Shown here in pieces: positions 18,999 to 24,725 of a stretch of DNA of 64,000 bases. Origin of the DNA: Pseudomonadota bacterium (lineage in GTDB: Bacteria > Pseudomonadota > Alphaproteobacteria > Rickettsiales > UBA3002). The position numbers and the translations under genes were made by a program. The DNA is taken from assembly GCA_040384265.1 (NCBI GenBank), contig JAZKJM010000001.1, positions 248,001-312,000 of the forward strand. The letters are read 5' to 3'. The notes below the pieces were generated by a model. It was not told the DNA's origin, ran no database searches, and saw only the letters and a program-made list of their open reading frames with translations. Positions within the stretch are counted from its first letter, which is position 1; every line of letters begins with the position of its first letter.

Positions 18999-20024
18999 AT
19001 GACCACGCCCGCGCTTTTGCCCTCAGGGCTGATGGATGTGCTGCCGCCCCTGGCGGCTGCGGAGTTCCGGCTCGTCCATTATTTCCTGAAGACCTTCATG
19101 GCGTTTGGATACCAGCCGGTGATCCCGCCGCTGGCCGAATACGCATCGAGCATGCTGGCAGGCCAGGGCGAAGCGACCGGCCACCATGTGTTTCGCATGC
19201 CCGACCCGCTCGCCCCGGAAATGCTGGCCCTGCGCGCGGATATGACCGGGCAGCTGGCACGCATCGCGGGCACCTCGCTCAGCCAGATGCCGCGCCCACT
19301 GCGCCTGTGCTACGCGGGCTACACCCTGCGCACCGCGCCCGAAGCCCTCAAAACCCGCCGCCAGCACACGCAGGTCGGCATCGAGCGTTTTGGCGATATG
19401 GATACGCGCTCGGTCGCGGAACTGCTGTCCATCGCCGCCCACGCGCTGGATGGTAACGGCGTGTCGGATATCACCATCGACCTGCATTTTCCCGCCGTGA
19501 TGGAAGCGCTGCTGGCCGAGGTTTCGGCCGAGGCCCAGCCCGCCATCCGCGAAGCCGCGCGGCTGAAAGACATCGCCCAACTGCGCCGCCTGAAAGCCGG
19601 GCTGATCGCCGATATTCTTGAAACCTCCGGCGAAGCAAAACGCACGCTGGCGAAGCTTGCAACCATCAATCATCCGGCCGTGGCGCAGGCCGTGGCCGCG
19701 CTCGACGCGCTGGTCAACGCCCTGCAAGCACAGCAAGTGGCGGCCAATGTCACCGTCGATATGCTCGACCTGTCCGGCTACGGCTATTACACCGGCATCG
19801 GCTACGCGCTCTATTGGAACGCCGCCAATATCGAAGTCGGCCGCGGCGGCTGCTACCGCACCGGCAGCGGCGAGGATGCCGTCGGTTTCACGCTCTATAT
19901 CAACGACCTGCTGGAGCAATTGCCCGCCGAAGCGCCCGCCCCCATCAAAACCATCCCCTACGGCACCCCGGCCAAAGAAGCGGCCGCGCTTCAGACGCAA
20001 GGCTTTGTCACGGTTTTTAAGTAG
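18999..20024 (+). CDS. hisZ: ATP phosphoribosyltransferase regulatory subunit HisZ
   Basis: HisZ is a catalytically inactive HisRS paralogue that pairs with short-form HisG for the first step of histidine synthesis. The 341-residue protein carries the HisRS-like core: LLPSGLMDVLPPLAAAEF, LRADMTGQLARIAG (motif 2-like), RRQHTQVGIERFG and YTGIGYALYW near the C-terminus (motif 3-like). It lacks a full anticodon-binding domain, which is how HisZ differs from HisS. It lies just after the tautomerase and upstream of purA, although an unknown reverse gene separates it from purA here. Confidence 0.9.
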   Translation: MTTPALLPSGLMDVLPPLAAAEFRLVHYFLKTFMAFGYQPVIPPLAEYASSMLAGQGEATGHHVFRMPDPLAPEMLALRADMTGQLARIAGTSLSQMPRPLRLCYAGYTLRTAPEALKTRRQHTQVGIERFGDMDTRSVAELLSIAAHALDGNGVSDITIDLHFPAVMEALLAEVSAEAQPAIREAARLKDIAQLRRLKAGLIADILETSGEAKRTLAKLATINHPAVAQAVAALDALVNALQAQQVAANVTVDMLDLSGYGYYTGIGYALYWNAANIEVGRGGCYRTGSGEDAVGFTLYINDLLEQLPAEAPAPIKTIPYGTPAKEAAALQTQGFVTVFK

Positions 20025-20039
20025 CGTTATCCGCCTTTA

Positions 20040-20606
20040 TTAATGAGGAGGAAGCGGCAATTCTTGCTGAACTAATTCCTGCGCAGCTTTCCATTGTTTT
20101 TCTACATAGGTTTGGATGCCTTCATCCGTGGTCAACCATTGATCTTCTTGAGCAAACGGTTTGTTGGATGACTGCATTGCATCGCGGAAATAGCGGCACT
20201 CATGCGTTAATTTTGCTTTAGCAAATTCTATCTCTGCAGTGACGTCATAACGCAAATCCAATACGCTCAATTCTTTCATCAAAAGCAATGAACCGATCAT
20301 GGCATCACGTAGAGGGAACTGACTCATCCAAGGGGCGGGCTGAAAACTATTGAGTGATGCCGGCATCGGAGGCAAGTCTTTTGAAAATGCCATTTCATCC
20401 TTTATTGCCTCATAAAGCGCACTATCGTCGTGTTCTGTTGGGCTAAGATGTTTCATTGCTTCGCTATCATCTCCCACGATCTGAACGTTGCGCCAAAAGA
20501 GCGCATCTAATTCTTTAACCTGCTTTAAATCGTTCACGCCTGCCGCCTTGTGCAAGTGCGAATAGGATAGTTTTTTTGCCTGAAACCTTGCAGCGTGCGT
20601 CGTCAT
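20040..20606 (-). CDS. Hypothetical protein inserted between hisZ and purA
   Basis: A 188-residue soluble product starting MTTHAARFQAKKLSY. No recognised domain; it is mainly helical with polar charge (KQVKELDALFWRNVQIVGDD, TECRYFRDAMQ-like regions) and a short proline-rich tail (LPLPPH). The start at 20606 is preferred because AGGAG lies 6 bases before it. G+C content is lower than in hisZ and purA, and it runs against both of its neighbours, which suggests acquisition or relaxed selection. Not recognised; no function proposed. Confidence 0.6.
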   Translation of the reverse strand: MTTHAARFQAKKLSYSHLHKAAGVNDLKQVKELDALFWRNVQIVGDDSEAMKHLSPTEHDDSALYEAIKDEMAFSKDLPPMPASLNSFQPAPWMSQFPLRDAMIGSLLLMKELSVLDLRYDVTAEIEFAKAKLTHECRYFRDAMQSSNKPFAQEDQWLTTDEGIQTYVEKQWKAAQELVQQELPLPPH

Positions 20607-20772
20607 AGTGGGCTCCTGTGATGTCATTCGTCTAGACCATTGGGTTTAAAATAAAAAATGGGTGCTGTTTGTGACAGTTTCATGAAACCTGCATCCGTCA
20701 TAAGCCCTAGACACATGGCTGCATTTGTGGCACAAGGCAGCGGATTTTATGAAATAATCACAGGTGTATGAT

Positions 20773-22068
20773 ATGCAAAGCGTGGTGGTTATCGGCTCCC
20801 AGTGGGGCGATGAGGGTAAAGGCAAAGTGGTCGACTGGCTGAGCGAGCGCGCGGATGTGATCGTGCGCTTCCAGGGTGGGCACAATGCCGGTCACACGCT
20901 GGTGATCGACGGGGTGACGTATAAACTCAGCCTGCTGCCGTCGGGCGTTGTGCGCAAAGGCAAGACCAGCATCATCGGCAACGGCGTGGTGATCGACCCA
21001 TGGGCGCTTTTCAATGAAATTGATAAAGTCCAGAAACAAGGCGTCGAAGTCTCGCCTGAAACCTTAAAAATCGCCGAGAACGCGCCGTTAATCCTGCCAA
21101 TTCACCAGAAACTCGACGAAGCTTCCGAGAAACTGCGCGGTAGCAACAAAATCGGCACCACCGGCCGTGGCATTGGCCCGGCCTATGAAGACAAGGTCGG
21201 CCGCCGCGCCATCCGCATTTGCGATCTGGCGAACCCCACCCTGCTGCGCGCCAAGCTGGATGACATGGTCGCCCACCATCAACCGATCCTGACCGCTTCC
21301 GGCAGTGAATCCATTGATGTGGACGCATTATTTAACGCATTGAGCGAAGTAGCGAAAAAGATCCTTCCGTTTGCCACCCCGGTCTGGCGCCTGCTCGCCC
21401 AATACCGCGCAGAAGGCAAACGCATCCTGTTCGAAGGCGCTCAAGGCATCATGCTGGATGTCGATTACGGCACCTACCCCTACGTTACCTCCTCCAACAC
21501 CATGGCGGGTGCGGCCACCATCGGCTCGGGCTCGGGCATCAACGCGATCGGCTATGTGCTGGGCATCACCAAGGCCTACACCACGCGGGTCGGCAGCGGT
21601 CCATTCCCCAGCGAGCTGAGCGACGACATCGGCGAGCGCATCGGCGAGCGCGGGCATGAATTCGGCACTGTCACCGGGCGCAAGCGCCGCTGCGGCTGGT
21701 TCGATGCGGTGCTGGTGAAACAGGCGGTCACGGTCGGCGGCATCAACGGCATCGCCCTCACCAAACTGGACGTGCTCGATGGGCTCGAGGAGCTGAAGCT
21801 CTGCATCGGCTATGACATCAACGGCACCCATTACGACTACCTGCCCGCCGCCAGCGACCTGCAGGCCGCGGCGACGCCGAAATACGAAACCATCGAAGGC
21901 TGGAGCGAATCCACCCGCGGCGCGCGCAGCTGGGCGGAACTTCCCGCGAGCGCGATCAAATATATCCGCCGCATCGAAGAGCTGATCGGCTGCCCGGTCG
22001 CCCTGCTCTCCACCAGCCCCGACCGCGAAGATACGATCATGGTGAAGGACCCATTCCTCGGCCTCTAG
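20773..22068 (+). CDS. purA: Adenylosuccinate synthetase
   Basis: Condenses IMP with aspartate using GTP, in AMP synthesis. The 431-residue product starts [18 protein letters not shown] and contains the P-loop-like [47 protein letters not shown] and TTTG-like [12 protein letters not shown] blocks of PurA. A GTG start nine bases earlier is possible, but AGG 8 bases before 20773 favours ATG. Length is typical. Confidence 0.97.
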
Positions 22069-22088: not shown

Positions 22089-22117
22089 TTGAGGCGACGG
22101 CGAATTTTCGTTATAGT
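22089..22117 (+). promoter_or_regulatory. Candidate promoter of the pseudokinase operon
   Basis: TTGAGG (22089-22094), 17-base spacer, TATAGT (22112-22117), 33 bases before the start codon. The boxes and spacer fit other promoters in the window. Confidence 0.6.
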
Positions 22118-22149: not shown

Positions 22150-24246
22150 ATGGCAAAGGCCAACACGATAAGTGACGCGGAAATTCCGCTGATTGAAGAA
22201 CATGTCGAGACAGGGCTTCAACAGCTGCTGGACTCGTATCGCACCAGCTATGTGCCCGGCGGCGACAAGAAGGATGAGCTCGGCGGCCGCTTCACCTTTT
22301 ACCCCTCGCGCCCACTGCCGGAATTCAACCACACCTATGCCAAGGGCTATGAAGCGGTCGATGATTTCAACACCGCCCGCCCCGTCTACGCCATGGTGTG
22401 CGAAGGCCCCGTCCCGCCGCGAACCATGGCCATCAACGACCTGACCGGCTTTGTCCACCCCGCCATCAGCACACTGCTTGGCGCGGGTACGGTCAATTGC
22501 TCGCATCTGGGTGAGTCGCGCATGGTGCTGTTCATCGAGCGCCCACGCGGCACGCGGCTGAAGGATATTATCAAGACCCATGGCCGCCTGCACGAGCATA
22601 AGGTGCTCGACACCATCCTGCAGCCCATCGCCAAAGTGCTGGTTGCCATGCGCGAGAAAAAACTAAGCCATGGCCACATCCACCCGGGCAATGTGTTCAT
22701 GAGCGATGCCGCGATGCTGGGCGAATGCAGCTCGGCGCTGTGCGGCACGCAGCACCATTATATCTACGAACCGCTGGAGCGGCTGATGGCCGACCCGCTG
22801 GGCCGCGGCGAGGCCAGCGAAAAATCCGACGTCTATGCGCTGGGCATCCTCGCCTTCGAGCTGATGTATGGGCTCGATAAAATCAAGGCCATTCCACGCG
22901 AGCAATTCATCGAAAAGGCGATTTCGCTGGGCACCTACCAGCTGTTTGCCGAAAACCGTGAATATTCCGATGCGTTGCAGGATTTTTTCCGCGGCATCCT
23001 CAACGAAAATCCAGCCGAGCGTTGGGGCCTTGAGCAGCTGATGCAATGGATCGGCGGCAAACGCTTCAACATGATTGCGCCCAACACCCCCAAGGAAGCG
23101 TTGCGCCCGATCACCTTCCACGATGAGGCGTTTTTCAGCCGCCGCAGGCTGGCCAATAGCTTCCACGTCCACTGGCGCGAGGCGCTGAAGGATATCAAAG
23201 CACTGCGGGTGGATCGCTGGTGCGAAATGAGCCTGCACCGGCCAGAGCTGGCCGAAAAGATGGAACGCGTCCTGCGCACCGGCGGCCACGCCTCGACCGA
23301 GGCGCAGATGAACGACATGCTGACCCGGGTGATCTGCCTGCTCGATCCCATCGGCCCGCTACGCACCAGTTCGCTTTCCATCCGCCCGGATGCGCTGGGG
23401 GCGGTGCTTGCGGAGACCATCGACCATGGCGGCCCGGAACTGGCGCAGGTGGTTCGCTTTATCGAGAATGATTTCCCCACCTTCTGGGCCGACCAGTCGG
23501 AGAGTAACAAGAACCCCGAGATATCGATCCTGATGTGGCGGCTGGAGCGGGTGCGGCCATACCTGAAAAAGAAGGGCGTCGGCTTCGGGCTGGAACGGGT
23601 GCTGTATGACCTCAACCCCTCCCTCGCCTGCCAGAGCCCACTGCTGAAAGCCTATCACGTGACCACTGCGGTGGATGCGCTGAAGACGCTCGATGCTATC
23701 GCCGTGCAGATGGCGCCCGATACGAGCTTTGTTGATCGGCACCTGGCCGCCTTCATCGCCAGTCGGATCGAGATGGGCAAGGAAATCCGCATCCCCGACC
23801 TTGCCTCGGTGCCCGCACTTGCCAACAACCAGGAGCTGGCCGTGCTGCATTTGCTGGCCAAGGCACAGCAAAAAGTAGCCCGCCTCGCATTGCCGGGCCT
23901 GTGCAGCTGGGCTGCCATGCGCATCGAGAAAATGATTAACGAGATCCATAACCGCATCATCCGTAAACGGCTGAAACTGCAGCTGAAGGGCCTCGCCCAA
24001 TCCGGCAATCTCTACGATGTGCTGACTGCCATCATCAACATTGAAGTGTCGCAGCGCGACCATGAAGGCTTCGCCCGCGCCATCGCCTTGCACCAGATCA
24101 ACACCGACCGCATGGATTTGCTGAAAAACGACCAGATTCTCGATTACAAATCCCGGCGGGCGGGCGGCAAAATGGCCAGCGTCATCACCTTCGCCGCGCT
24201 GGTCATCACCAGCTATATTACCATCTTCAACATCTACGGGCTCTAA
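22150..24246 (+). CDS. Tail-anchored pseudokinase-like protein
   Basis: The 698-residue product has a kinase-like region at about 40-320 with SHGHIHPGNVFM (174-184) in place of the HRD catalytic loop and LGECSS in place of DFG, so both metal-binding aspartates are absent, while Asn of the loop, KSDVYALGILAFELMYG (224-240) and an Arg-rich follow-up segment persist. It therefore looks like a pseudokinase. A long helical region (330-660) and one C-terminal membrane segment (about 675-695, MASVITFAALVITSYITIF) follow, giving a tail-anchored topology. AGGGGG precedes the start. The next gene, two bases downstream, encodes a small membrane protein. Partner or ligand unknown. Confidence 0.65.
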   Translation: MAKANTISDAEIPLIEEHVETGLQQLLDSYRTSYVPGGDKKDELGGRFTFYPSRPLPEFNHTYAKGYEAVDDFNTARPVYAMVCEGPVPPRTMAINDLTGFVHPAISTLLGAGTVNCSHLGESRMVLFIERPRGTRLKDIIKTHGRLHEHKVLDTILQPIAKVLVAMREKKLSHGHIHPGNVFMSDAAMLGECSSALCGTQHHYIYEPLERLMADPLGRGEASEKSDVYALGILAFELMYGLDKIKAIPREQFIEKAISLGTYQLFAENREYSDALQDFFRGILNENPAERWGLEQLMQWIGGKRFNMIAPNTPKEALRPITFHDEAFFSRRRLANSFHVHWREALKDIKALRVDRWCEMSLHRPELAEKMERVLRTGGHASTEAQMNDMLTRVICLLDPIGPLRTSSLSIRPDALGAVLAETIDHGGPELAQVVRFIENDFPTFWADQSESNKNPEISILMWRLERVRPYLKKKGVGFGLERVLYDLNPSLACQSPLLKAYHVTTAVDALKTLDAIAVQMAPDTSFVDRHLAAFIASRIEMGKEIRIPDLASVPALANNQELAVLHLLAKAQQKVARLALPGLCSWAAMRIEKMINEIHNRIIRKRLKLQLKGLAQSGNLYDVLTAIINIEVSQRDHEGFARAIALHQINTDRMDLLKNDQILDYKSRRAGGKMASVITFAALVITSYITIFNIYGL

Positions 24247-24248
24247 CG

Positions 24249-24725
24249 ATGGCGACCACCACCCTGACCATGCGCAAGATGCGCCGCAAACATAAGCTGC
24301 TGCTGATTCTGTTCAGCCTGCTGATGATGGGGCTGCTGAAAACCGGCTTTGTCTTTTTCGTGATCGGGATGATGCCCTGCGTGGTCGCGTACTACATGGA
24401 TGTGAGCAAGCACCGCTACATGTTTAAAAGCGTGTTCAACGCCAACCTTGCGGGCATGATGCCATCCATCGTCAAGATGATCCATGCCGGCCCATCCAGT
24501 GTGCTGCTGCAGGAGATCATGGGCAACAGCACCAACTGGTTCATCATCTACGGCGCGGCGTTTATGGGCTGGCTGCTGGTGAAAGTGTGCCCAATGGTGG
24601 CGCAGGTGATGGTGATGGGGCTGCACCAATCGCAGGTCGCGCGCTATGAGGGACTACAGAGAAAAATCGAAACCGAATGGGGCCCGGAAGTGACCCAGTT
24701 CAGCGGCGATAAGCGGCCCGTCTAA
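24249..24725 (+). CDS. Small membrane protein paired with the pseudokinase
   Basis: A 158-residue protein with a basic N-terminus (MRKMRRKHK) and about two or three membrane segments (LLLILFSLLMMGLLKTGFVF, VIGMMPCVVAYYMDV, and near WFIIYGAAFMGWLL). No known domain. Two bases separate it from the pseudokinase, so they are probably translated together. The 3' end abuts the stop of mnmA, which is convergent. Function unknown. Confidence 0.72.
   Translation: MATTTLTMRKMRRKHKLLLILFSLLMMGLLKTGFVFFVIGMMPCVVAYYMDVSKHRYMFKSVFNANLAGMMPSIVKMIHAGPSSVLLQEIMGNSTNWFIIYGAAFMGWLLVKVCPMVAQVMVMGLHQSQVARYEGLQRKIETEWGPEVTQFSGDKRPV

Follow-up and report, generated by a model that had tools for sequence, protein, structure and literature searches.

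A tail-anchored pseudokinase and a small membrane protein maintained together across many alphaproteobacteria

The window, the whole stretch of DNA analysed here, comprises 64,000 nucleotides from a member of the Rickettsiales (assembly GCA_040384265.1, contig JAZKJM010000001.1, positions 248,001 to 312,000 of the forward strand). It contains two genes on the same strand, separated by two bases, of which the first encodes a pseudokinase and the second a small polytopic membrane protein (Table 1). These two genes form one unit that is kept together across many alphaproteobacteria: among 288 genomes of the class, strong matches to the pseudokinase were found in 100, and the small gene in the same 100. 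A sequence-only reading of the region had described a tail-anchored pseudokinase with a small membrane partner two bases downstream; the gap follows from the coordinates of the open reading frames (stop at 24246, start at 24249), and the description as a whole is upheld by the model of the fold, the lost residues, the anchor and the identical sets of genomes. We interpret the pair, with about even confidence, as a putative non-catalytic scaffold tethered to the membrane, together with a membrane protein dedicated to it.

Distribution and linkage of the pair

In the 56 genomes of the window's order, the pseudokinase and the small gene are each present in 41, and these are the same 41 genomes. 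The searches of the class were confined to genomes at least 85% complete; 23 of 123 kinase matches, which did not reach E 1e-50 and of which those listed span the kinase domain only, and one weak small-gene match (genome G058, 1 of 101) were dropped before the counts of 100 were taken.

On synteny, which had been proposed as a check, the genes are adjacent in 31 of the 41 genomes of the order and in 98 of the 100 genomes of the class. In the other ten genomes of the order they lie apart, seven times on different contigs (G018, G020, G022, G023, G029, G034, G051) and three times far apart on one contig (G030, G046, G055). An unlinked second gene had been named beforehand as an observation that would speak against the pair. 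Such cases do occur, but the coupling survives them: both genes are kept in each of the ten genomes and neither is found alone, which argues for a functional pair.

All 20 genomes with a kinase match at E 1e-30 in a search of 397 genomes of the phylum, the class itself included, belong to the same class. Named holders include Azospirillum, Skermanella, Niveispirillum, Magnetospirillum, Terasakiella, Thalassobaculum, Nisaea and a metagenome-assembled genome (MAG) of the Rickettsiales. Named records were scanned with one peptide pattern, and among the best 80 of 260 matches most titles are alphaproteobacterial; two loci bear titles from outside the class, L122 (Anaerolineae) and L138 (Stygiobacter), but both are MAGs and presumably reflect binning errors. 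In the record of Azospirillum thermophilum the first gene is named 'serine/threonine protein kinase' and the second 'hypothetical protein'.

The small gene lies within 1.5 kb downstream of the pseudokinase in 72 of 82 loci from named records. Among the other ten, L161 has the small gene slightly beyond this limit, the sequences of L160 and L163 stop too early, and in seven loci, six of them titled Magnetospirillum or Phaeospirillum, no small gene lies there. In two Magnetospirillum records (L152, L159) no small gene follows the pseudokinase and the next genes depart from the usual order, one of them presumably being tilS. The window's own assembly (G000), rated 95.5% complete, has no RpoB match, and absences in it are to be read cautiously.

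A kinase fold without the usual catalytic residues

The kinase fold that had been read from KSDVYALGILAFELMYG, which is present, is modelled with high confidence. Residues 103-299 match the Pfam family Pkinase with a score above the gathering cut-off (E 3.4e-11), and the related PK_Tyr_Ser-Thr is the sole other Pfam family that passes the cut-off on the 698-residue protein. An AlphaFold2 model of the whole protein, built on 58 family members (mean predicted local distance difference test, pLDDT, 92.2; predicted template modelling score, pTM, 0.85), supplies the structure prediction that the sequence-only reading had called for and gives a bilobal kinase fold at residues 40-305. Foldseek matches these residues to PknB, and the 50 rows shown by VIA-align, which include WNK, PknA, PknB and ULK1, have Z of 21.1-23.3 over 231-258 residues with a root-mean-square deviation of 2.6-3.6 A.

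The presence of HGH instead of HRD and of LGEC instead of DFG is confirmed. Kinase motifs can be aligned in 39 of the 41 relatives with a match in the order, and HRD occurs in none of the 39. The wider family was followed in the 58-row alignment A3 and in 112 relatives, namely kinase rows with an adjacent small gene and less than 25% gaps, thinned at 95% identity from 160 pairs, a set that contains no unlinked family members. The position of the HRD aspartate (176) is His in the window protein and holds Asp in 0 of the 58 rows and in 2 of the 112 relatives. A correct aspartate elsewhere in the pocket had been named beforehand as an observation that would speak against this reading; no other aspartate of the catalytic loop is conserved, the best being column 180 with 27 of 58. 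At the position of the beta3 lysine, placed by inspection (YALVC), Lys is found in 0 of 58 and 0 of 112 and Cys in 69 of 112; across columns 78-87, Lys never exceeds 8 of 58 rows. Residues of the fold are kept, with D227 in 58, R291 in 57 and E207 in 51 of the 58 rows.

The earlier claim that both the catalytic and the metal-binding aspartates are lost stands for the former, which is gone in 110 of 112 relatives. The DFG site has undergone a substitution only: it holds Glu in 63, Asp in 45 and another residue in 4 of the 112 relatives, which makes an acid present in 108. Loss of the metal-binding aspartate is true of the letter in the window protein and misleading for the family. The histidine of HRD is kept in 106 and the asparagine of HRDxxxxN in 97 of the 112.

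As far as its sequence can say, the protein is a pseudokinase, and catalysis of the usual type is excluded. Binding of a ligand in the altered pocket is possible, since the acid of the DFG site and the asparagine of HRDxxxxN are kept. These two residues are also consistent with a nucleotide or metal sensor, which would bind ATP or ADP without the beta3 lysine and whose grip on the partner would follow the energy or purine state, a role compatible with that of a scaffold. WNK kinases have no beta3 lysine and carry Cys in that position; they are the best profile and structure matches of the kinase domain, which together with the frequent Cys at beta3 points in the same direction, as does purA as a common neighbour. 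However, columns 60-75 show no conserved glycine-rich loop, K65 within them is Lys in only 29 of 58 rows, and several members lie away from purA (L115, L117, L119, L120), and we consider a sensor unlikely.

The conserved acid and asparagine would likewise suit an atypical transferase whose active site has been rebuilt, as in SelO or SidJ, and the HGxINPDN loop resembles Hgvmntdn of SelO as given in Table 1 of PMC12599244. In the same table SelO and SidJ keep the beta3 lysine (WHLK, VAVK), which none of the 112 relatives has, and the aspartate of HGxINPDN occurs in only 27 of 58 rows. We regard such an enzyme as very improbable.

The helical domain, the anchor and the membrane partner

The kinase fold is followed by a helical domain with a family signature of near-invariant columns (Table 1). 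In a comparison of 41 members with Pfam, each family shown matches one member only (best E 0.0035), and no PDB sequence or profile match lies below E 0.6; the domain may still have a known fold. Hydropathy places the sole membrane segment of the window protein at residues 675-693 of 698, where it stops five residues before the C terminus. A C-terminal hydrophobic segment is found in 55 of 58 aligned relatives, in agreement with the anchor originally proposed; 18 of the 58 have some further segment.

In the model of the partner (pLDDT 92.7), membrane helices precede a single long helix (94-144), which terminates in a conserved EWG. This protein has no Pfam match, and its fold has no match at E <= 0.001 in a Foldseek search of the PDB and a VIA-align Z of at most 5.0 over 31 chains. 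An NCBIfam scan of both proteins returned only matches far under the cut-offs. Basic residues at the N terminus and at 50-60 suggest that both ends of the partner are cytoplasmic.

A putative membrane scaffold and its possible client

We propose that the two genes encode one inner-membrane complex. Lacking the catalytic aspartate and the beta3 lysine, the pseudokinase would not carry out the usual phosphorylation; its kinase fold and helical domain would face the cytoplasm, with the C-terminal helix tethering them to the membrane. The pseudokinase would have the small membrane protein as its partner, and the long last helix of that protein, closed by EWG, would extend into the cytoplasm. As a scaffold without catalytic activity, the complex would bring further proteins to the membrane, and a nucleotide or metal bound in the altered pocket may gate it. 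Its likeliest customer in the window's order would be the flagellum or another motility function.

This last step comes from the distribution of flagellar genes, for which a FliG or FlhA match was scored, with HisG as the control marker of free living. In the order, FliG_N is present in 38 and FlhA in 37 of the 56 genomes; pair and flagellar genes agree in 54 of 56, HisG and the pair in 42 of 56. There are two misfits: G042 (80% complete) has the pair but neither flagellar gene, and G052 (58% complete) has FliG but lacks the pair. On an RpoB tree, pair and flagellar genes are in the same state in 43 of 43 genomes, the other 13 of the 56, both misfits included, having no usable RpoB stretch. 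At the level of the class, FliG is found in 93 of the 100 pair holders and FlhA in one of the other seven (G332), which brings holders with FliG or FlhA to 94; the phylum search added nine more genomes with the kinase, eight of which have FlhA. Within the order the link with flagella is suggestive; outside the order it is loose.

Several observations weigh against the scaffold or against its link with motility. The RpoB tree has only about four changes, two of them on well-supported branches (sign test p 0.5). Six of the 100 pair holders of the class have no FliG or FlhA match, and G553 holds the kinase, split over two frames, without FlhA. Conversely, 80 genomes have FliG without the pair, and three of them (G105, G148, G183) have FlhA too. 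The family f122 is opposed, with flagellar genes and no pair in G148 and the pair without flagellar genes in G243. The usual neighbours of the pair are housekeeping genes, and no clear CtrA or flagellar sigma site lies upstream of it. Contact of the two proteins is putative, and the coupling analysis was powerless: with 112 pairs (effective number 86), only 16 of the top 400 couplings fall between near neighbours, and the top cross-protein scores are slightly above those of three shuffled pairings, which break shared ancestry too. Finally, the kept asparagine and the Glu or Asp of the pocket leave room for another kind of catalysis.

The six holders lacking both flagellar markers, the few changes on the tree, the contrary family f122 and the housekeeping neighbours are in favour of an envelope or division factor without a role in motility, in which case the match with flagella would reflect reduced lineages that lost both. 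Against this, HisG, another marker of loss, does not track the pair, and within two families presence goes with the flagellar genes (G035 and G055; G079 and G602, the latter two for the kinase only). An envelope or division factor is possible, if somewhat short of an even chance, and compatible with a scaffold; indeed the scaffold, motility, sensor and envelope readings are not exclusive of each other. Motility as the client of the scaffold we regard as tentative and rather doubtful. The same degree of doubt attaches to a broader proposal: flagellar motility would have, as a general accessory, an ancestral alphaproteobacterial complex of two inner-membrane proteins, one a no-lysine pseudokinase that carries a new helical domain and the other a new polytopic protein, and this complex would have been missed since its genes lie next to purA instead of with the flagellar genes.

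With both genes present in one shared set of 100 out of 288 alphaproteobacterial genomes, and with a C-terminal domain and a partner without Pfam family, the pair would be a missing piece of alphaproteobacterial cell biology, and a broad pseudokinase family would be added to those known. Its occurrence in Azospirillum, Magnetospirillum, Skermanella, Niveispirillum and Terasakiella, genera for which laboratory strains exist, makes it directly testable.

Gene order, upstream regions and additional copies

A frequent gene order around the pair is serC-serA-hisZ-purA-[pair]-rpoH-rluD, of which the window keeps hisZ and purA upstream (Table 1). We take these housekeeping neighbours as an old gene order that gives no hint of function; a function read from serC, serA, hisZ, purA, rpoH and rluD was rejected, as they point to no process. 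Between hisZ and purA, within the otherwise conserved order, the window has an open reading frame of 195 residues on the reverse strand (20040-20627), with no NCBIfam match at E 1e-5.

Table 1. Coordinates of the gene pair, its parts and its neighbours in the window
Feature	Position	Strand	Basis
Pseudokinase gene	22150..24246	+	ATG 22150 to stop 24246; 698 aa; relatives found; AlphaFold2 model
Kinase-fold domain, residues 40-305	22267..23064	+	Pfam Pkinase, Foldseek, VIA-align
HGH at the HRD site, residues 174-176	22669..22677	+	Alignment of relatives
LGEC at the DFG site, residues 190-193	22717..22728	+	E192 on the metal-binding Asp, profile alignment to WNK1
Helical C-terminal domain, no family match, residues 331-630	23140..24039	+	Model; Pfam; PDB sequences
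Family signature GFGxERxLYxxNPxLPCQS, residues 478-496	23581..23637	+	Near-invariant columns in 58-row alignment A3
C-terminal membrane anchor, residues 675-693	24172..24228	+	Hydropathy
Small polytopic membrane partner gene	24249..24725	+	ATG 24249 to stop 24725; 158 aa; relatives found
EWG closing the long C-terminal helix of the partner	24675..24683	+	W144, G145 in at least 90% of 60 rows
Sigma-70-like site	22089..22117	+	9/12 matches; not above shuffle expectation
purA, adenylosuccinate synthase, upstream neighbour	20764..22068	+	Homology group shared with the L108 gene named purA by NCBIfam
hisZ, ATP phosphoribosyltransferase regulatory subunit	18999..20024	+	Best NCBIfam matches, below curated cut-off

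The "good promoter" of the sequence-only reading does not count as evidence, as one sigma-70-like site stands against a mean of 1.0 in shuffles. TTAACC seemed enriched upstream of the pair relative to shuffles (24 versus 9.6 expected), and it is present in 23 of 147 pair upstream regions compared with 7 of 55 for rpoH, 2 of 83 for purA, 2 of 66 for hisZ and 2 of 14 for serC; the rpoH regions are similar to those of the pair in G+C content, and those of purA and hisZ are higher. The full TTAAN7TTAA is found in 5 of the 147 regions, versus 1, 0, 0 and 0 for the same controls. Control by CtrA is possible but unproven, and it was set aside. For flagellar sigma factors, upstream regions of the pair hold 3 sigma54 sites versus 1.1 expected and 0 sigma28 sites.

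GT41-type glycosyltransferase and DegT aminotransferase genes can serve the glycosylation of flagellin or of the surface. Two extra copies of the pseudokinase, in L204 (6000-11700) and L215 (1-10164), adjoin GT41 glycosyltransferases with tetratricopeptide repeats, that in L204 being also near a DegT aminotransferase; a third, in L213, lies two genes from an IcmF-like gene. A function deduced from such copies was rejected, as others stand beside unrelated genes and no partner is consistent. Copies of the small gene away from the pseudokinase adjoin MFS, groES/groEL or pyrophosphatase genes. Genome G067 has three extra small-gene copies (L201, L202, L203), with no pseudokinase in the fetched stretch, in addition to one full pair, and G186, of the same genus, has four small-gene matches.

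Comparison with known systems

That no described system of this form was recognised in the sequence-only reading holds within the open-licence literature of PubMed Central, in which our searches found no paper on the pair. A review of bacterial pseudokinases has headings for ActPs1-3, GLW, CP1, DYD and DLHK (PMC12599244). The family described here fits none of these seven as far as the accessible part of that text goes, and the word Alphaproteobacteria is absent from the review (PMC12599244).

Among the nearest parallels are membrane-bound pseudokinases of secretion systems. EssB has two soluble domains, one of them beyond the membrane, in the order pseudokinase, membrane helix and second soluble domain. 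This layout, shared by EssB, YukC and TraF, is not found in the window protein, which does not belong to their family: its membrane segment at 675-693 ends the chain and no second soluble domain follows. In type VII secretion, EssB/YukC is a transmembrane pseudokinase that acts as a scaffold (PMC12599244), and TraF of Gram-positive type IV secretion is a structural homolog (PMC13037476). Like the window protein they are pseudokinases bound to a membrane, and they serve as a hub for other membrane proteins; unlike TraF with its two soluble domains (PMC13037476), the window protein has its extra domain between the kinase fold and the terminal membrane helix. The 50 rows shown of Foldseek and of VIA-align are filled by other kinases, and the usual neighbourhood of the pair has no secretion gene, the extra copy near the IcmF-like gene being noted above.

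Among the families of the review, the GLW pseudokinases of proteobacteria have the same general layout and have lost catalytic motifs (PMC12599244). They differ in that the HRD site of the present family is mostly HG or HR with a varying residue and not GLW, and its beta3 is YALVC-like and not LLLL/W. CP1 and DLHK pseudokinases, found in proteobacteria among others, also have degraded catalytic motifs but no transmembrane regions (PMC12599244). The lysine of the WHLK motif of SelO-type AMPylases is absent from the present family (0 of 112 at beta3).

With active Hanks-type Ser/Thr kinases the family shares neither the catalytic aspartate nor the beta3 lysine. The WNK kinases, its best structural and profile matches, resemble it in the Cys that is common at the beta3 position, but unlike the window family they keep HRD, and the likeness is one of fold only. 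The fold is likewise shared with Ser/Thr kinases of the PknB and PknA type, from which the window protein differs in the loss of the catalytic aspartate and lysine and in an anchor at the extreme C terminus, placed after a large domain without family match and followed by no further domain.
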